46,396 bases of DNA. It comes from Verrucomicrobiota bacterium (GTDB taxonomy: Bacteria > Verrucomicrobiota > Verrucomicrobiia > Limisphaerales > SXTU01). Position numbers and translations under genes: made by a program. Below, in pieces: positions 28,603-44,900 of this stretch. Below the pieces are notes generated by a model. It searched no databases. It was not told the DNA's origin and saw nothing but the letters and a program-made list of their open reading frames with translations. Each line of letters begins with the position of its first letter. Position 1 is the stretch's first letter. Location of the stretch: assembly GCA_016871445.1 (NCBI GenBank), contig VHDH01000015.1, positions 1 through 46,396 of the forward strand, read 5' to 3'.

Positions 28603-29757
28603 TTAGTCGAGCGTCTTTTTAGGCGGAGCAATATTTATTGGCATCGGACCCTTAGGCTTAGGCGGCGGCGGTGGTGGCGGCGGTGGTGTCGTACCCGGGG
28701 GCGGCGGGGGAGGGGGAGGGGGAGGTTCCTTGAACCGGTTCACCACAAACTGCGGCATATTCTCGGAAAAATTGAAGCCTGCGGAATATTCCCAACCAGC
28801 CGGAATACCGTAACGGCTGCATTGCTCACGCGCGGCGTGGTAAGCCGCGACGCCCGTAGGGTGAATGTAAAACCAGCAAATGTTTTTCGGGTTGCTGCGC
28901 AGGCTGACGAGCCTCTTGCGAAAGTTGGACTGAGGATCATCTAAAACGTCGAGAGTTTCACCGCCATCAGCGCGCAGGCGAATCCGCATGTTCACCCGGT
29001 CGGTGGTGCTGTTGGTGGAAGGCATGGGGAAGACCAGTTCCACGTATTCGTCCCCGTATTTCTTGTCGTTGAGCCAGTTGACCGTGTTAAAATGGTCAAA
29101 AACAAAGGTCTTGCCGTCTGGATGCGGTTTGTCATGGCGAAGGGAACTCTTTTGCCTCTCAAGTTCGGTCCAAACGCGGTTTCGCCAAAGGTCTTGGTTG
29201 ACTATGTACACCTTGTTACTGAGGCATACCACACGGTAGTGGGACGCGCCGTTAGGTATGGGTTTCGCTACTGGCACACGCACGTCAATGGGCGGAGGAC
29301 CTTTTGGTGGGGGCGTCTTGTCGAGAGTGGCGCGCAGACCGTCGCGCTCAGCCAGCAGGACAGTGTTAGTTTGCTTCTCCGCCTTCTCCTCATCACGTTT
29401 TTCGGCAGCTTCCTTCTGCAAGGTTTCTAAGTCGCGGGTCTTGATGCCCTTTTGCTCAAGCGTGTTCTCGAAGGCGCGGAGGTCGTTCAATTTAGACTTT
29501 GCCTTTTCCGACAAGGTCTCATGGTTGACTCCTGACTTCTGAGCCTCGGTCTTAATCTTAGTAAGCTGCTGCTTAGCTTCAGCGATATCTCGGGGGGTGA
29601 CCTTAGACAACTCCTCCTCGATCGTTTCGGCGTTGTTCTTCACCCCCATCTGCACGATGATGAGCACGAGCAACAGCGTGCCGACCACGTTGGTCATGTT
29701 GTCCATCATGGAGTCCATATTGACTCCGTCATCTAGATTTTGGGTGCGCTTAGCCAT
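28603..29757 (-). CDS. ExbD-like protein with aspartate, coiled coil and polyproline tail
   Basis: 384 residues. A short cytoplasmic N-terminus leads into MDSMMDNMTNVVGTLLLVLI (14-33), a single membrane helix with Asp15/Asp19 at its entry, the position of the proton-carrying Asp of ExbD/TolR. Residues 45-140 are charged and helical (coiled coil); then comes a periplasmic domain with HYRVVCLSNKVYIVNQD and WFYIHPTGVAAYHAAREQ. The C-terminus has ten prolines, GTT, and nine more prolines, then PKGPMPINIAPPKKTLD. It starts 12 bp after the second ExbD-like gene and is the last gene of the three-gene operon. A stator or rotor-coupling role in a proton-driven motor is inferred from the family; the proline stretch could span the periplasm as in TonB. 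Confidence 0.82.
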   Translation of the reverse strand: MAKRTQNLDDGVNMDSMMDNMTNVVGTLLLVLIIVQMGVKNNAETIEEELSKVTPRDIAEAKQQLTKIKTEAQKSGVNHETLSEKAKSKLNDLRAFENTLEQKGIKTRDLETLQKEAAEKRDEEKAEKQTNTVLLAERDGLRATLDKTPPPKGPPPIDVRVPVAKPIPNGASHYRVVCLSNKVYIVNQDLWRNRVWTELERQKSSLRHDKPHPDGKTFVFDHFNTVNWLNDKKYGDEYVELVFPMPSTNSTTDRVNMRIRLRADGGETLDVLDDPQSNFRKRLVSLRSNPKNICWFYIHPTGVAAYHAAREQCSRYGIPAGWEYSAGFNFSENMPQFVVNRFKEPPPPPPPPPPGTTPPPPPPPPPKPKGPMPINIAPPKKTLD

Positions 29758-29769
29758 AGTGTTGAGGGG

Positions 29770-30555
29770 TTACTTCATGAACTTCTCAAATTCGCTCAGG
29801 TCCACCTTGCCTTGACCGGGGATGGGCAGCTTGCTGGTGGCGATTTTAAATTGTTGCTGGGCCCAGCCCGCGCCTCGATCGTGGCTGTTCATCCCGTCCG
29901 TGCGAACCAGAAAGAGCAAAAGGTGGTTCTTATGCTCGGCTACCTCCGTCAAGAAGTCGTTGTAATCTTTGTCCGCACCGATTGTTGCGGCGGCGACGCG
30001 AAAGCGATCATCTTTACTCTTATGAATGGTGATGGAGTCGTGGTTGGCCTCAACGACGAAGAGCCGCCGCCCCACGGCAAAGCCGCTGCCGCCGCCTTGA
30101 ACTCGGATCGCGGGTTTAAGCAGCGCGGGGTCAATGCGCCGCTCGACTAATTCCTCCTTAAGCTTGGCAATTTCTTTCTGTAAGGGAGGTTTGTCTTTTT
30201 GCAGACCATCAATGACAATCTTCATATTCCTAATTTCGGCCTCCAAACGAGCAAGGAGGGCATCAGTGGTGGCAGCATCTTGGACCAACTCCTGTAAGAG
30301 GATGAGACGTTTCTCGGCCTTTTCAATGGTCGACATCAGGTCGGTGATCGAGCGGAATTCGTTAAGCTGCCTTTGGATCCCTTGCATCTCCGCCACGAGG
30401 GGGTTCGTCTTGGCCGCTGCGGAACCGGAGTTGATCACTTGCACGGTGGCGAGCACGCAGATCATCACGACCAACGCCCCGGACAAGCACGCAAGGATGC
30501 TCAGGAATGGGAAGAGCGATACGGTCGGAATGGCACTAGTTTTGCCGCGGGCCAT
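29770..30555 (-). CDS. ExbD-like protein lacking the membrane aspartate
   Basis: 261 residues. The N-terminal helix is VSLFPFLSILACLSGALVVM (12-31), matching the FPFLDVL pattern of ExbD except that Ser19 stands where the aspartate should be. A coiled coil (about 60-135: IQRQLNEFRSITDLMSTIEK and further) follows, then a periplasmic domain with GFAVGRRLFVVEANHDSITI and LLLFLVRTDGMNSHDRG that appears homologous to the C-terminal domain of the 384-residue partner. It lies between the channel gene (39 bp upstream) and that partner (12 bp downstream). A heteromeric pair of ExbD-like subunits with only one protonatable member is a reasonable inference. Confidence 0.8.
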   Translation of the reverse strand: MARGKTSAIPTVSLFPFLSILACLSGALVVMICVLATVQVINSGSAAAKTNPLVAEMQGIQRQLNEFRSITDLMSTIEKAEKRLILLQELVQDAATTDALLARLEAEIRNMKIVIDGLQKDKPPLQKEIAKLKEELVERRIDPALLKPAIRVQGGGSGFAVGRRLFVVEANHDSITIHKSKDDRFRVAAATIGADKDYNDFLTEVAEHKNHLLLFLVRTDGMNSHDRGAGWAQQQFKIATSKLPIPGQGKVDLSEFEKFMK

Positions 30556-30594
30556 GATATTGGTTAAAACTTGTGTTTTTAATTTGGGCGAGCT

Positions 30595-33450
30595 TTACCC
30601 CTTGCCAGAAAAGCGGCTAAAGAATCCGCCTTTGGCGGGCGTCGCGGGCAACGCGAGCGGCACGGCCTGCTGAATGACGATGGTTTTGCCACCGAGGGCG
30701 CTGAGCGTTTCATTTAGCGAGGCGATGCCCTTTTGCAGCGTGGCAAGCTGCAGGTTGGCGTTTTGCATGGCCTCAGTCGAAGCGCGGGCCACATCCTGCT
30801 GGACTTTGCTCATGCCGGACTCTACCGACCGGGCCACGCTGGCTTGCGCGGACTGAGCGGCGCGATCCAGACCGCCCAACTGGGCGGTGACAGCGCGCAC
30901 GCTCTCGCTGAGGGTGCCCAACTGCTGGGCCACTGGCCGCAGGCTGTCCTCGAGCGACTTCGTAGCCTCGCGCTGCATCTGGCGACTGGCCTCCAGCGAG
31001 GCTTGCTGGGCGGCGTTCTGCTGGTCACGACCAGCACGCTCCAACTGGGACATTTGGCTGACGGCGTTTTTCATTGCCTCGCCCAAGCTGGCGATCTGCT
31101 GGGCGGCCGGCCGGAGCGCCTCTTCCATGCCACGGGCGGCATCGCGCTGCAGCTGCGCGGTGGCTTCTTGCAGGGCGCGCTCGGCGGCGACCTGCTGGTC
31201 GCGAGCTTGTTTTTCTAAACCGGATACAGAGCTGCCGGCGCCCCTGACCGCTTCCGACAAGGCGGTGAGCTGCTGAGCGGCGGGCCGGACAGTATCCTCC
31301 AGCGCCTTGGCCAAATCGCGCTGCAAGCGCGAGGTGGTCTCGATAAAGGACTGCTGACCGGCAGCGTGCTGCTCGCGGGCCTGCTTCTGCATTGAAGTAG
31401 CCTCCGTGACGGCATTCTTGGCGGTTTCTCCGATGGCCGCGAGTTGGGAAACCGCCGGGCGCATGACTTCTTCCATGGCCCTGGCCGACTGGCTGGCCGT
31501 GTTGCGGATGGATTCTGCGAGACCACGGGAAGCTTCCTCCTGCACGCGGGCGATGGATTCCTGCATGGCCCGCTGCATCGCAGCCTGTTGTTCGGAGGCG
31601 CTGCGCTCCAAGCTGGCGACATGCTGGGCGGCAGTCTTTACGACGTCGCCCAATGAGCCAAGCTGCTGCGCCGCGGGGCGGACCGCATCCTCAAGCGCCT
31701 TGGCAAGATCGCGCTGCAAGCGGCCAGTAGTCTCCATAAACTCGCGTTGGCCAGCGGCGTGTTGGTCTTGCGCTTGTTTTTGGAGCGCGGTGGCCCCCGC
31801 GACGGCGGCTTTGGCGGTTTCGCCAATGCTGGCCAAGTGTTGCATGGCGGGTTTAACGGATTCCTCGATGGCCTTGGAGGACTGAGCAGCCGAGGCTTTG
31901 ATGGATTCTTCGAGCACCTTGGAGGCGTCCCTCTGGACGCTGGTGACAGCTTCCTGCATGGCTTTCTGCACTGAACTCTGATGCTCGCTGGCCTGCTTTT
32001 GTAAGGTGCCCACATGCTGAGCAGTAGACTTGACCGCGTCGGTGAGGGCGTTGACCTGCTCGATGGCGGGTTTGAAGGTGTTTTCGATGGCCTTGGAAGT
32101 TTCCCCGATGGAACTCTTCATGGCTTCCGCGATGACCTTGCTCGAGTCCTGCTGTAACTTGGCGAGCGTTTCCTTGACCGAAGCGTCCAGCTGCGCCTGC
32201 TGGCTGGAAGCGACTTTTTCGAGGGCGCCGACGTGGTCGGTGGCTTTTTTGAGAGTAGTACTAAGGGTCTCGATACTGGTGCCAGCAGACTTGCCCAAGT
32301 CGCCGAGAGTCTTATTAGCCGTCTCGTTAAAGGCAGTGATGGCCTTGGTGAAATTCTCCTGCACCAACCTCTGGTTCTCGTTGGCGCGTTTGTCCAAGCC
32401 TTCGGCCTGTTCCCGCACCATTTTGGAAGCCGCATCCAGCCCCGTCAGGAACTGCGTGTGCGCCCGCGTGAGGGACGCCGTGAGCACGTCAGCCAGCGCG
32501 CTCATGTCACCGCCAGCGGTGTTGGAGCCGTCGTTGAGGCGCGGGAGGAAGTTCTCATTGCAGTAGGCGTCCACGTTGGTGAGCGTGTCTTCCTCGAGCT
32601 TCTGCAGGGACGACATCGGCAAGGTCAGGAACAAGGCATAGACAAGCCCCAGCAGCGTGGTGTCGAAGGCGGTGGCGAGGCCGGCGGTGACGCCGCCCAT
32701 GGACGTCATTAGGAGCGCCGGATCCTTGACGGCCTCGGGGCTCATCACGCCCTTAAAGTTGGCAATAGCCGCCGAAAGACCAATGACCGTGCCGATGAAC
32801 CCGAGGATGGGAATTGCCCAAATAAACACCTTAACAATCGTAAAGCTGCCGCCAATGCGCGCGCCATCAATGTTGGACTGGTTGCCCATCATGGTGGAGA
32901 CCTCGGAGTTGACCTGACGAGTCTCAAACAGCTCGAGCGCCTTGCGAATGCGGTTGACCATGAGGCTGTCACGCAGCTTCACCGGCAGTGCATAAACATG
33001 CTGAATGAAGGAACCTACATTTTCCTTGGCGATTTTGCGCGCGATGTCCATCGGCAACACATCGAGCCGCAACGCGCTCTGTTGATGGCGGATCTTTAGC
33101 AGTTTAAGAAAGAGGAACGCCACGCCCCAGCCAAAGAAAAACGTCTCCGCGAACTGCACCCAGCCACGCTCGTAGAGCAGGCCCTTGGTGTATTTGAAGG
33201 GCAGCGCCAGCAGGTAGATCAGCACGAAGATGCCCACGCCGATGCCCAGCGCGATCCAGACGTTGGGGTTGGTGGGGTCGGTCTCTTTCCAAGCCTCGCG
33301 ACCGGCCTGGGCCGCACCAGCTTGGCTGGCAGCACTGGCAGCGGGAACAGTGAGATTTAAGCCGCAACTAGGACAGGCGACATTCGAGCCCGCAAATTCG
33401 GGCTCCACCATCAACTTCATGGCGCATTTGGAGCAGTGAAAGCGTATCAT
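30595..33450 (-). CDS. ExbB/TolQ/MotA-type channel protein with zinc ribbon and giant repeat tail
   Basis: 951 residues. Residues 1-30 are a zinc ribbon (C6, C9, C26, C29). Membrane helices are predicted at about 64-84 and 97-117, then two at the channel core: VFIWAIPILGFIGTVIGLSA and GGVTAGLATAFDTTLLGLVY, the ExbB/TolQ/MotA signature that forms the pentameric proton channel. From about residue 330 to the end the protein is a long Ala/Gln/Lys/Glu-rich helix, including seven tandem repeats (431-881), and it ends in AKGGFFSRFSGKG. ExbB is normally about 240 residues, so some 600 residues are extra and should be cytoplasmic. Two ExbD-like genes follow. Similar tail architecture is known in ZorA of Zorya defence, but no sequence relation to ZorA's tail can be claimed from reading. 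Confidence 0.85.
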   Translation of the reverse strand: MIRFHCSKCAMKLMVEPEFAGSNVACPSCGLNLTVPAASAASQAGAAQAGREAWKETDPTNPNVWIALGIGVGIFVLIYLLALPFKYTKGLLYERGWVQFAETFFFGWGVAFLFLKLLKIRHQQSALRLDVLPMDIARKIAKENVGSFIQHVYALPVKLRDSLMVNRIRKALELFETRQVNSEVSTMMGNQSNIDGARIGGSFTIVKVFIWAIPILGFIGTVIGLSAAIANFKGVMSPEAVKDPALLMTSMGGVTAGLATAFDTTLLGLVYALFLTLPMSSLQKLEEDTLTNVDAYCNENFLPRLNDGSNTAGGDMSALADVLTASLTRAHTQFLTGLDAASKMVREQAEGLDKRANENQRLVQENFTKAITAFNETANKTLGDLGKSAGTSIETLSTTLKKATDHVGALEKVASSQQAQLDASVKETLAKLQQDSSKVIAEAMKSSIGETSKAIENTFKPAIEQVNALTDAVKSTAQHVGTLQKQASEHQSSVQKAMQEAVTSVQRDASKVLEESIKASAAQSSKAIEESVKPAMQHLASIGETAKAAVAGATALQKQAQDQHAAGQREFMETTGRLQRDLAKALEDAVRPAAQQLGSLGDVVKTAAQHVASLERSASEQQAAMQRAMQESIARVQEEASRGLAESIRNTASQSARAMEEVMRPAVSQLAAIGETAKNAVTEATSMQKQAREQHAAGQQSFIETTSRLQRDLAKALEDTVRPAAQQLTALSEAVRGAGSSVSGLEKQARDQQVAAERALQEATAQLQRDAARGMEEALRPAAQQIASLGEAMKNAVSQMSQLERAGRDQQNAAQQASLEASRQMQREATKSLEDSLRPVAQQLGTLSESVRAVTAQLGGLDRAAQSAQASVARSVESGMSKVQQDVARASTEAMQNANLQLATLQKGIASLNETLSALGGKTIVIQQAVPLALPATPAKGGFFSRFSGKG
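30808..32160 (-). repeat. Seven tandem coding repeats in the channel-protein tail (73-73-58-73-58-58-58 residues)
   Basis: Units start with a K/R/Q-[LMV]-Q-[RQE]-[DE] motif: KLQQDSSKV, SVQRDASKV, RLQRDLAKA, RVQEEASRG, RLQRDLAKA, QLQRDAARG, QMQREATKS. Unit limits on DNA are 32160-31942, 31941-31723, 31722-31549, 31548-31330, 31329-31156, 31155-30982 and 30981-30808. Each unit continues with RPAAQQL-x3-L and L-x4-R-x2-Q. The three long units differ by one 15-residue insertion (for example NTASQSARAMEEVMR in unit 4). Counts were made by hand from the translation. Confidence 0.85.
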
Positions 33451-41360: not shown

Positions 41361-43538
41361 TTAGTATTTCGGCTTGATCGGCATTGTGGATTCAGCCGCG
41401 CCGTGAGGTTTGCGAGAGTCAATTTTACCCATCGGTTTGCCGTTGGCCGACGGCTCGTCGGCGTTGTTGTTGCTGTGATAATGATAGCCGCTGTAGTAAT
41501 AGTATGATGCGTCGCTCGCAAGGTTGATGTTATTAAGCACGACACCTAAAAGACGGCCACCGACTTTTTCAACCATCTGGCGCGAGCGAATGGCCAGCGA
41601 CTGAGGGTATTTTCGGTATTGGATCACAAGGATGGCCAAGTCCGCCCCGCTGGCGAGCACGGTGGCATCGCTGACCCCCATAATGGGCGGGGCATCAAAG
41701 AAGACGAAGTCGTACCGACTCTTGGCTTCCTTGATGAAATCCTTCATTTGTGGTGAATTTAGGATGCCGAGCGCGCTGCTTGGGAGGCGACCGCTGGGTA
41801 GGAAGTGTAAATTGTCGAGCGACGTGGTTTGCACCACCTCCTCAAGTTTATTTTGGCCGAGCAGATGGTTGGTGAGGCCAAGTGAATTGGTAAGACCAAG
41901 GCGCTTGTGAAGGCTAGGGCGGCGGAGGTCGGAATCCACGAGCAACACCTTGTTACCATTCTGGGCGAAGACAGTTGCAAGGTTTAGGATGGTGGTGGAC
42001 TTGCCTTCACCTGCGCCGCCGCTGACGACAGTGATGCAGTTGGCTTTTTCGTCTTTACGAGTAAAGAGGACGTTGGTGCGTAGCACGCGGTAAGCTTCGG
42101 CGTGGGGGCTGTCGAGGCCTTCGTCTAGGAGGGCACCCACATTTTGCGGTATCACGGCTAACACTGGTGCGGAAAGGGCTCGCTCTACGTCGTCGATGGT
42201 CTTGACGCTGGTGTCGAGATACTCGATGAAGAAGGCAAGACCGATTCCCATGACCAAGCCGACGAAGCAGCCGAGGGCGATGTTAAGCACAAGCTTGGGA
42301 TAGGCGGCTTTCACAGCCGGCTCAGCGAAATCGGTGACGCGAACAGCGGTGGTGCGGCCGATGGCGGCGTCGTTTTCCTCGACGAGTATCTTGGTCTTGA
42401 CGGTCTGTTGGAGGCGCTGAGCCTGTTCGAGTTGGTTTAACGCGAGCAGGTAAGACCGATTCTTCTCGGCGGCAGTGCGGTTGCGCTGCTTGGCCTCCTC
42501 AAGCTTGGCTTCAGTAAGGGTGAGCGCGGCCGTCTGGGCTTTCAAGTCTGTCTCCAAGCCGAGCGTGATACCTTTGACCCGGTCGTCCACCTGCTGGTTG
42601 AGCTTTTGAATGACAGCTTGCATACGGAGGACTTCCGGATGCTGGGGGCCGAGATCGCGGCTCTTGCCCACAAACTCCTTCTCCGCGAGGCTATATTCTT
42701 CCAACCGACGGGAGAGGATCTCGTCATTGACGACTGGGCCGAGCGCATTACGCAGCTGATCCGGCGCAATCTTTTTTAATTCAGTAAAGCGCGTCTGCTG
42801 CTTGGTAAAGATGCCACGGATCTCAATCAACTGCTGCTCCAACGCACGTATGGTGTCGGTCTCCAAAGACATGATGCCGGCTTGGTTTTCCACAATCACG
42901 TTGAGGCCTTGGTCTTTGAGGATGCGATTTACATTGCTTTCCGCGCTGCTGACCAATGCGTCGTGCTCAGCGAGCTTTTCCTTGAGCACTTTGATACCCT
43001 GCTCGGCGAGGCGCTTCCGCAGGTCGTCGCGGTTACCTTTGTAAACCTCAGCAATCTTGTTGGCGATCTCGGCGGCTTCGGCTTTGTCTTTGCTGTAGAC
43101 GTTGACCTCAATGATGGAAGTGTTTCGGACATTGCGAGGGTCGATTAACTTGCTGAGGACTTGAAAGGCCTTCTGCCGGGACTCGCCGAGCAAGTATTTC
43201 TGGTTCCAGCGCTGCACTAACTTAAGGTCGTCTATGACCCTATAGAGCACATCTTTAGACTGGAGGATCTCGAACTGGGTCATCACGAAGTAAGGATCGT
43301 AGACCATCTGCATTTGCTGCGAGGCGAGCAGGTTGATGTCGCCCGTGTCCTTTTGCACGTCCATGCGGACAGTGCTCATGTAGGTAGGCTCAATCCATTG
43401 CGTGATCAAGGTGGTTGTGACCACCACGAGCAAAAAGACCGTGAAAATGATCAGCTTACGCATCCGGATGATGCGCCAATAATCAAGGAAGTGTAGCCGC
43501 TGCTCGGCAGACTCAGTGGCGGGTGACGCGGCGTCCAT
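41361..43538 (-). CDS. Wzc-like polysaccharide co-polymerase / BY-kinase
   Basis: 725 residues. Two membrane helices flank the periplasmic coiled-coil part: MRKLIIFTVFLLVVVTTTLI (about 26-45) and LVLNIALGCFVGLVMGIGLA (about 415-435). The cytoplasmic kinase has Walker A SGGAGEGKST (Lys513), Walker A' VLLVDSDLRRPS and Walker B FVFFDAPP (Asp615). A tyrosine cluster SYYYYSGYHYH lies near residue 680, the autophosphorylation tail of bacterial tyrosine kinases. Together with the Wza-like protein it controls chain length and export of an exopolysaccharide. An intrinsic terminator lies just upstream of its start. Confidence 0.95.
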   Translation of the reverse strand: MDAASPATESAEQRLHFLDYWRIIRMRKLIIFTVFLLVVVTTTLITQWIEPTYMSTVRMDVQKDTGDINLLASQQMQMVYDPYFVMTQFEILQSKDVLYRVIDDLKLVQRWNQKYLLGESRQKAFQVLSKLIDPRNVRNTSIIEVNVYSKDKAEAAEIANKIAEVYKGNRDDLRKRLAEQGIKVLKEKLAEHDALVSSAESNVNRILKDQGLNVIVENQAGIMSLETDTIRALEQQLIEIRGIFTKQQTRFTELKKIAPDQLRNALGPVVNDEILSRRLEEYSLAEKEFVGKSRDLGPQHPEVLRMQAVIQKLNQQVDDRVKGITLGLETDLKAQTAALTLTEAKLEEAKQRNRTAAEKNRSYLLALNQLEQAQRLQQTVKTKILVEENDAAIGRTTAVRVTDFAEPAVKAAYPKLVLNIALGCFVGLVMGIGLAFFIEYLDTSVKTIDDVERALSAPVLAVIPQNVGALLDEGLDSPHAEAYRVLRTNVLFTRKDEKANCITVVSGGAGEGKSTTILNLATVFAQNGNKVLLVDSDLRRPSLHKRLGLTNSLGLTNHLLGQNKLEEVVQTTSLDNLHFLPSGRLPSSALGILNSPQMKDFIKEAKSRYDFVFFDAPPIMGVSDATVLASGADLAILVIQYRKYPQSLAIRSRQMVEKVGGRLLGVVLNNINLASDASYYYYSGYHYHSNNNADEPSANGKPMGKIDSRKPHGAAESTMPIKPKY

Positions 43539-43551
43539 GGGTTAGAAAAGC

Positions 43552-43581
43552 AAAAAAGGCCAGAGTTTGTTGGCTCCAGCC
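43552..43581 (-). terminator. Intrinsic terminator between barrel and Wzc-like genes
   Basis: On the minus strand GGCTGGAG and CTCTGGCC form an 8-bp stem (two G-T wobbles) around an 8-nt loop, followed at once by six T (43557-43552). It ends only 13 bp before the Wzc-like start codon, so it should cut or attenuate read-through from the outer-membrane barrel gene. Confidence 0.6.
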
Positions 43582-43634
43582 TCCCTCGCGAATTGCCAAG
43601 CCGTCAATCAGTAAGATACCCCAAGCAGAACCCC

Positions 43635-44900
43635 TTACCACGTGGACTTGAAGCCGAGGTAGAGGCGGTTCCGGTAGTAGCTGCGGCCGGCGAGATCAGC
43701 ATCCTGCCGATCATAGTTGTAGCCGCCCTCCAAGGTCAAAAACTGATGGATGCGCCACTCTAAGTTAATGCCGATGCCGAAGATATTATCCGCGACGTTG
43801 GGTGTACCGACTGTCTGGCGGTATCGGGAGAGTTGGTAATTTGCCAACAATGAGCCGCGGAGATCGGGATTGAACTCGTGGTTCAACGAGCTGTAAACGC
43901 TCGTCGCCTCTGCGTCCACTGATGCGGCTACGTCGGTCGTGGACCGGACGTGACGAACACCTACCTGAGCACTGCTGTTGGGCAGGTAATCCCAAGCGAC
44001 GTTCGCATCCACATAAGGGCTGGTGTTTGAACTAGTGAACCTCGGCGTAGCCAGGCTCGCATTGGGATACTTAATGTACTGAAGGCCCAACCGGCCATTC
44101 ACACGAAGATCCGGTGTGAAACGGTGTCCGACGCCAGTGAAAAAATAATGCGTCTGGCGATCGCGGGTTTCTGGGAGGTTGCCCGTAGCGTCCAACGCGT
44201 CCTTACTGGTCGAATTCACCGCACCGAAAGAGTAGCCCATCAGCAGCTCGGTCGAAGTCTCGTCGAAGATGCGATACCGGCCCGCCAACGTAAAGAGATG
44301 CTCCACACGATCTAGCAAGGCAGAGCGTGCACCAGGCCCGGTGTCTGAGGAGTCCTGCTGGTAGTCGAAGAAAGTGTTGGCGTAGCTCACCTCGGCTGAC
44401 CACCGCTCCACGATCTCGTCGATCGCATACTTAAGTTCGATGTTATTACGAATGTTGTTGCCGGTGGTGCGACCAAAGGTCGACTGTACTCCCGCGTCCA
44501 GCACGCCCGGCTCCTGTGCGATGGCCAGCGAGTCCGTGAACGTTAGTTTCTGCTTTTCGGTGAGCTGATGCCCCAACGCTACGCCGAAGTCGAAGCTGTG
44601 ATCCGCTGAGCCGCTGGTGCGATCCTCGAAGTAACGCATGCCGTAACGGGTGGACAAGTCCACCGTGGTTTGGTCGCGCTTGAATTGATACGCCGCCGAA
44701 GGGCTAAGTTCCATTCCTAAGCTGCTCCGTTTGGTCGCAACCCCCGCGGCCGCGCGAGAGGGTAAGGTGAAGTAGTTGTCGTCGTAGAAGCTTCGCGCCG
44801 TCACCGAAACGTTCCAAGGCTTTGCTTCTTGAGCCACGGCGGGCTGCATCACTGCCGCTCCCAAGGCCGCCATCGTGGTTGTTGCCAAAATCCGTTTCAT
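43635..44900 (-). CDS. Outer-membrane beta-barrel protein of the exopolysaccharide cluster
   Basis: 421 residues with a signal peptide (MKRILATTTMAALGAAVMQP, cut near AVAQ). The mature part is a series of alternating amphipathic strands with aromatic girdles (VSVTARSFYDDNYFTLPS, STRYGMRYFED, YRNRLYLGFKSTW) and ends in Trp, the usual C-terminal residue of Bam-assembled barrels. About 16-18 strands can be counted roughly. It resembles EpsL-type outer-membrane proteins of exopolysaccharide operons and is first in the minus-strand cluster, followed by a terminator and then the Wzc-like gene. An export or surface-attachment role is inferred. Confidence 0.82.
   Translation of the reverse strand: MKRILATTTMAALGAAVMQPAVAQEAKPWNVSVTARSFYDDNYFTLPSRAAAGVATKRSSLGMELSPSAAYQFKRDQTTVDLSTRYGMRYFEDRTSGSADHSFDFGVALGHQLTEKQKLTFTDSLAIAQEPGVLDAGVQSTFGRTTGNNIRNNIELKYAIDEIVERWSAEVSYANTFFDYQQDSSDTGPGARSALLDRVEHLFTLAGRYRIFDETSTELLMGYSFGAVNSTSKDALDATGNLPETRDRQTHYFFTGVGHRFTPDLRVNGRLGLQYIKYPNASLATPRFTSSNTSPYVDANVAWDYLPNSSAQVGVRHVRSTTDVAASVDAEATSVYSSLNHEFNPDLRGSLLANYQLSRYRQTVGTPNVADNIFGIGINLEWRIHQFLTLEGGYNYDRQDADLAGRSYYRNRLYLGFKSTW

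Follow-up and report, generated by a model that had tools for sequence, protein, structure and literature searches.

The window, by which we mean the whole 46,396-nucleotide stretch of Verrucomicrobiota DNA analysed here, carries a three-gene unit on its minus strand at 28603-33450. Its gene order is A-P1-P2, with spacers of 39 and 12 bp and open reading frames for proteins of 951, 261 and 384 aa, which agrees with the minus-strand operon described in an earlier note made from the DNA letters.

30595-33450, minus strand: gene A (951 aa), a ring subunit of the MotA/ExbB type with a zinc ribbon, four transmembrane (TM) segments and a 642-residue helical tail
29770-30555, minus strand: gene P1 (261 aa), an ExbD-like partner whose single helix lacks an acid
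28603-29757, minus strand: gene P2 (384 aa), a single-helix ExbD-like partner with a coiled coil, a periplasmic domain and a proline-rich linker

Residues 167-286 of A matched the Pfam family MotA_ExbB (PF01618) with an E value of 6e-9 and 36.1 bits (cut-off 22.9). Relatives of A match it likewise, which places these proteins in the ring-subunit superfamily. The zinc ribbon, MotA/ExbB core and long helical tail that the earlier note had read in this 951-residue protein are all present. By hydropathy, A has four membrane segments (near residues 64-82, 100-118, 205-229 and 254-279), and P1 and P2 have one each. Four segments are the layout of MotA, whereas ExbB has three; with this layout, the zinc ribbon and the tail of A would both lie in the cytoplasm. 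The glycines, prolines and threonines of the putative ion path in TM3 and TM4 are conserved.

33343-33450, minus strand: zinc ribbon of A, residues 1-36 (C6, C9, C26, C29), predicted cytoplasmic; the cysteines are invariant in 10 homologues
32764-32838, minus strand: TM3 of A, residues ~205-229, WAIPILGFIGTVIGLSAAI, including T221; G217, G220, T221 and V222 are invariant
32614-32691, minus strand: TM4 of A, residues ~254-279, GLATAFDTTLLGL, from conservation and hydropathy
32656-32661, minus strand: T264-T265 pair of A; T265 is invariant, and T264, which the D-type replaces by Ala, varies together with the P2-15 acid
30598-32523, minus strand: tail of A, residues 310-951, a repeated helical rod, from repeats and hydrophobic period
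30598-30702, minus strand: C-terminal module of A (GK-IVIQQ...KGGFFSRF-GK), conserved in short- and long-tailed forms

The tail is rich in Ala, Gln and Ser and has weak repeats at the protein level with lags of 58, 73 and 131 residues (29% identity at 131). We rejected an origin from a tandem DNA repeat, as no such repeat was seen in the DNA. The hydrophobic period is strong and sharp at 3.64 residues, above the 3.5 of heptads and below the 3.67 of hendecads, which suggests a near-straight, long helical rod or bundle. The last 30 residues of A are similar in most short- and long-tailed forms (LNxxLxxLGGKQVIVQQ...KKGxFSR), so the tail appears to be a spacer whose length varies and whose tip is conserved. 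The length of A is 530-1104 aa within the window's order, 428-487 aa among other families of its class and ~290-350 aa in a distant group, here called SFQDII; the tails of relatives range from none or ~100 up to 800 residues. Because its length varies so much, the tail is an elaboration of one order (Limisphaerales) and not the essence of the system. Hence the giant tail that the earlier note emphasised exists in A but does not define the system, the A proteins of relatives having ~290 to 1104 aa in total. The zinc ribbon (CxxC...CxxC) is missing from the distant forms L114, L116, L117 and L049. At one homologous locus (L042, 10145-11169) a frame-broken second A core, 62-80% identical, lies directly upstream of the intact A, a decayed tandem duplicate.

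P1 and P2 each consist of one N-terminal helix followed by a coiled coil and a C-terminal domain. Comparison of profiles with 26 and 22 members in hhalign aligned the two over their whole length (270 columns, 98.8% probability, E value 1e-16), and sequence comparison thus identifies them as paralogues; an earlier comparison with shallow profiles had been negative. In the profile alignment, Ser19 of P1 falls on Asp19 of P2. Both residues also fall on the ion-binding Asp of canonical ExbD proteins from the same genome, in weak, non-significant alignments (E values 0.009 and 0.14) that support the register and do not prove homology. The ExbD profile (PF02472) matched neither P1, P2 nor their relatives, the sole near case being the short-partner locus L156 (E value 0.024). 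Sequence searches against solved structures returned no ExbB or ExbD relative, only coiled coils and a weak match of the zinc ribbon to AglX (E value 0.06). AlphaFold2 models of P1 and P2 made with five sequences had pLDDT values of 39 and 38 and were not usable for a fold search. Four TM residues of P1 (P16, F17, L21 and G26) are invariant in 26 members.

30499-30501, minus strand: Ser19 of P1, at the site of the ExbD/MotB ion-binding Asp, from alignments to P2, ExbD and homologues
29701-29703, minus strand: Asp19 of P2, an invariant candidate ion-binding residue (22 of 22 aligned members)
29713-29715, minus strand: Asp15 of P2, a second acid one helical turn cytoplasm-ward of Asp19, from homologue alignments
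28606-28725, minus strand: proline-rich linker of P2 and conserved C-terminal IAPPKKTLD, from comparison of homologue ends

The two partners are thus related yet distinct, as previously noted, but they are not equivalent: P1 lacks the ion-binding acid and P2 has two. In nearly all P2 proteins of the subfamily whose end is intact, the proline-rich linker is followed by a terminal [LI]D. This extreme C-terminus (28606-28638 in the window) is a possible C-terminal recognition tag and is absent from the distant groups.

We then analyzed the distribution of the cassette. The A-P1-P2 order recurs across the phylum Verrucomicrobiota and is kept in nearly every complete locus examined, with one split locus (L100/L147) as the exception; its retention in more than 20 genera, at identities down to ~30%, is beyond chance. 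We rejected the idea that P2 is missing where P1 has Asp (L100), the D-type P2 of that genome being on another contig. The close form of P1 is present in 14 of 293 genomes of the order (17 with weak matches included), and with a wider profile 57 of 384 genomes in the class gave matches. The first profile gave matches in 36 of 388 genomes of the phylum, of which the weakest were coiled-coil hits or distant ones. The window's own genome contains six MotA_ExbB genes, A included, and five ExbD genes that pass the Pfam cut-off; A is the weakest match of the six and the sole one without an ExbD partner. A canonical ExbB/ExbD pair of this genome (L003, contig C59, 8581-11937) includes an ExbD-like open reading frame (900-1454) that reads QLDAAPFAGVFF, with Gly at the site of the ion-binding Asp; an Asp stands six residues before this site and may be a further case of acid relocation. 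A related genome carries a different motor operon (L051, G025:C232, 3910-18341), which encodes two caspase-domain/FGE-sulfatase proteins (Pfam E values 6e-17 and 2e-9), a fusion of an ExbB-like protein with a beta-propeller, and a protein whose ExbD-like helix retains the Asp; it looks like an undescribed signalling or defence locus.

We aligned the helices of 78 distinct loci, leaving out 17 further incomplete ones, and tabulated P1 position 19, P2 position 15 and A position 264, in that order:

Ser / Asp / Thr: 29 loci, the window's type among them
Asp / Glu or Asp / Thr: 28 loci (SFQDII group)
Asp / Val / Ala: 11 loci
Cys, Ala or Ser / Asp / Thr: 8 loci (short-partner group)
Asp / Asn / Ala: 1 locus
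Asp / Asn / Thr: 1 locus

None of the 78 loci lacks an acid at both P1-19 and P2-15. Where P1-19 is acid-less, P2-15 is an acid (37 of 37), and where P2-15 is acid-less, P1-19 is an acid (13 of 13); the large SFQDII group has three acids. An acid at P2-15 is accompanied by T264 in all 65 loci that have it, and a non-acid by A264 in 12 of 13, locus L176 keeping T264 alongside D-type acids. Fisher's exact test, which ignores descent, gave p values of 1e-4 for the P1-19 and P2-15 acids and 3e-13 for P2-15 with T264. In a tree of 51 loci with the acid columns masked, the Ser/Asp label switches at least three times on well-supported branches, and the P1 Asp has been regained in a clade nested within Ser forms. 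A 78-locus tree contains three independent P2-15 contrasts, about three of three compensatory for P1-19 and two of three concordant with T264; with only about three independent switches, a sign test corrected for descent cannot reach significance. The acid rule has no exception in the sample, yet it is based on few events. In the openly licensed literature we found no account of two axle partners of which one lost its acid and the other acquired one.

Since residues of all three proteins change together, P1 and P2 probably sit inside one A ring; such coupling would be expected only if one ion path were common to both partners. We propose that A-P1-P2 forms a 5:2-type, ion-driven inner-membrane motor in which the axle is an obligate heterodimer of P1 and P2 and the ion sites are not equivalent. 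Such a motor would probably serve the cell envelope. We give this proposal about even credence. If the axle is a P1:P2 pair, the Asp that 5:2 motors carry on both axle helices is present on one of them here, P1 having Ser19 and P2 having Asp19 and Asp15. Alternatively, P2 alone could form a homodimeric axle with two Asp19 residues, P1 being an accessory, plug or regulatory subunit outside the pore that has lost the ion site. This fits the invariance of Asp at P2-19 and the acid-less P1 of most loci in the subfamily, and every solved 5:2 axle is, to our knowledge, homodimeric (reviewed in PMC9389320). However, the P1-19 and P2-15 acids replace each other and P2-15 tracks T264 of A, as for one shared site. 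The Asp regained by P1 among Ser forms is likewise hard to explain for a subunit outside the pore, and the invariant TM residues of P1 also speak against it. We consider a P2 homodimer unlikely.

The residue pattern might instead reflect mainly the choice of ion. PomA binds Na+ through T158, T185 and T186, and residues 158 and 185 are Ala in stators driven by H+ (PMC10374538). G217 and T221 in TM3 of A are spaced as G154 and T158 of PomA, and in motif and spacing T221, T264 and T265 match T158 and T185/T186. The threonine set is thus complete in the window's type, and the Asp-type has A264. Ser-type motors (T221, T264, T265 and P2 Asp15) would then be driven by Na+ and Asp-type motors (A264 and P1 Asp19) by H+, in keeping with the occurrence of A264 with the P1 Asp and without the P2-15 acid. 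T221, however, is kept in both types. ExbB also keeps the equivalent threonine, yet it is H+-driven. Ion choice as the main explanation seems improbable to us, although it is compatible with a heterodimeric axle, the two not being mutually exclusive.

Returning to the heterodimeric axle, we infer the stoichiometry, ion, torque and output of the motor as follows. By analogy with the superfamily, the ring would consist of five A subunits and the axle of one P1 and one P2. In the window's version both axle carboxylates would be on P2, Asp19 at the canonical place and Asp15 one turn below, P1 having Ser19 instead. With the canonical acid on one half only, a pattern seen in the sequences, the two half-turns would not be equivalent. 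Solved structures of relatives show the axle Asp packed against a Ser/Thr ring of the ring subunits (ZorAB, PMC11890865). Ions could pass from the polar ring of T221, T264 and T265 to P2 Asp19 and exit past Asp15, which may serve as a second site, as a relay or in a salt bridge. The A ring and its bundled cytoplasmic tail would rotate relative to the axle, the P1 and P2 periplasmic domains and the proline-rich C-terminal arm of P2 would engage the wall or the outer membrane, and the conserved tail tip may couple the state of the motor to a cytoplasmic partner.

We next looked at the neighbours of the cassettes. No neighbour recurs among the homologous loci, nor among those of the window's own subtype. 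In the window, the cassette is flanked by unrelated genes: one flank holds a pseudopilin-like gene and homoserine dehydrogenase/threonine synthase, and the opposite flank has HupE/UreJ-like and glycoside-hydrolase-like genes. Further along the window (41361-44900), a Wzz/ParA-type tyrosine-kinase-like protein adjoins a BBP2_2 beta-barrel porin, and the two probably belong to a locus for polysaccharide export. Of six short-partner loci, four (L213, L214, L215 and L217) have lpxA adjoining or near the cassette, with fabZ also in L213, which suggests a link of the short-partner cassettes to lipid A synthesis for the outer membrane. LolC and LolD follow the cassette in another short-partner locus, plsY-gpsA adjoins the cassette in L102 and L106, and cdsA, the phosphatidate cytidylyltransferase gene, is a neighbour in L050. 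Proteins with a GYF_2-like N-terminal motif, read by eye, flank the SFQDII-type cassette in L049 and L116. From the relatives' neighbours, the periplasmic domains and the proline-rich arm of P2, we propose with low confidence that the motor maintains the envelope using ion-motive force; as the window's own subtype has no conserved neighbour, this role rests on the relatives.

Could the cassette be a further Ton/Tol-type energiser, with its TonB or TolA transducer elsewhere in the genome? It belongs to the same superfamily, P2 has a TonB-like proline-rich arm, and TonB genes are frequently unlinked (PMC12204202). Against this, Pfam recognises five other ExbB genes and five ExbD-type genes in the genome, P1 and P2 do not match ExbD, and no linked transducer was found in the loci examined. 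TonB, TolA, a receptor or Pal is not a recurrent neighbour of the homologues, and the flanks of the window's cassette lack Tol genes in addition to the TonB, Pal, Zor and nuclease genes whose absence nearby the earlier note had also remarked on. We judge a Ton/Tol role quite unlikely. A Zorya-like anti-phage motor, whose long tail would signal infection to a cytoplasmic effector, is more improbable still. Its ring with a tail and a weak similarity to ZorA (PADLOC E value 6e-8; NCBIfam 23.2 bits, far under the cut-off of 190) recall Zorya, but the NCBIfam match covers the tail only and no ZorB profile matches P1 or P2. The curated ZorA and ZorB cut-offs were not reached, neither ZorC/ZorD nor ZorE is next door, no nuclease gene is nearby, and the cassette is phylum-wide without a defence-island context. 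Having neither partner genes nor a profile above cut-off, phage defence was rejected. The suggestion of a separate tail-bearing motor of the MotA/ExbB superfamily, neither Zorya nor a Ton/Tol set, has thus held.

The combination of an obligate heterodimeric axle, one acid-less half, a second acid one turn away on the other half and altered ring threonines might define a natural motor class, which we advance tentatively and think somewhat less probable than not. Models of 5:2 motors assume two identical, alternating acid sites and 36-degree steps. The turnstile model has two alternating sites in a ten-fold cycle, its ten-fold symmetry has been called almost certainly universal, and for no such motor is it said to be known whether the swap passes via doubly protonated or doubly charged states (PMC9389320). 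A heterodimeric-axle motor with non-equivalent sites, if it exists, could not run this ten-fold symmetric cycle. With close relatives that have the two usual acids, a motor with one canonical acid would make the question of doubly protonated or doubly charged states testable within one family. The family also offers natural comparisons of Na+-like with H+-like ring signatures and of very different tail lengths with a conserved tip.

The pairing of a single ring gene with two unlike axle genes is known from AglRQS (PMC9389320) and from TolQ-like loci of the PVC superphylum (PMC12204202). The latter come from the same superphylum as our cassette, have one ring gene followed by two different TolR/ExbD-like genes, and are also of unknown function. 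Unlike the cassette, they include genes for a TPR protein and for a vWA transducer that has an SHLS motif; partner acid loss, a zinc ribbon and a long tail are not among the features described in the section consulted. We found no vWA transducer or TPR gene in the window and no vWA MIDAS motif near six short-partner relatives. AglRQS of Myxococcus xanthus likewise has one ring protein and two MotB/ExbD-like partners, and whether these form hetero- or homodimers is unsettled (PMC9389320). In contrast to A-P1-P2, AglQ and AglS both keep the Asp and there is no giant tail; no Glt or Agl partner gene flanks the cassette, whose only resemblance to AglX is the weakly matching zinc ribbon. Zorya ZorAB (PMC11890865) shares with A a ring subunit with a long cytoplasmic helical tail and has an Asp set against a Ser/Thr ring, but it has a single ZorB with a peptidoglycan-binding domain and the effectors ZorC/D or E, and the sequence match is weak. 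ExbBD, TolQR and MotAB share with the cassette the MotA_ExbB core and a single-helix partner with Asp, and differ from it in having a homodimeric axle with two equivalent Asp residues and neither a zinc ribbon nor a 642-aa tail.
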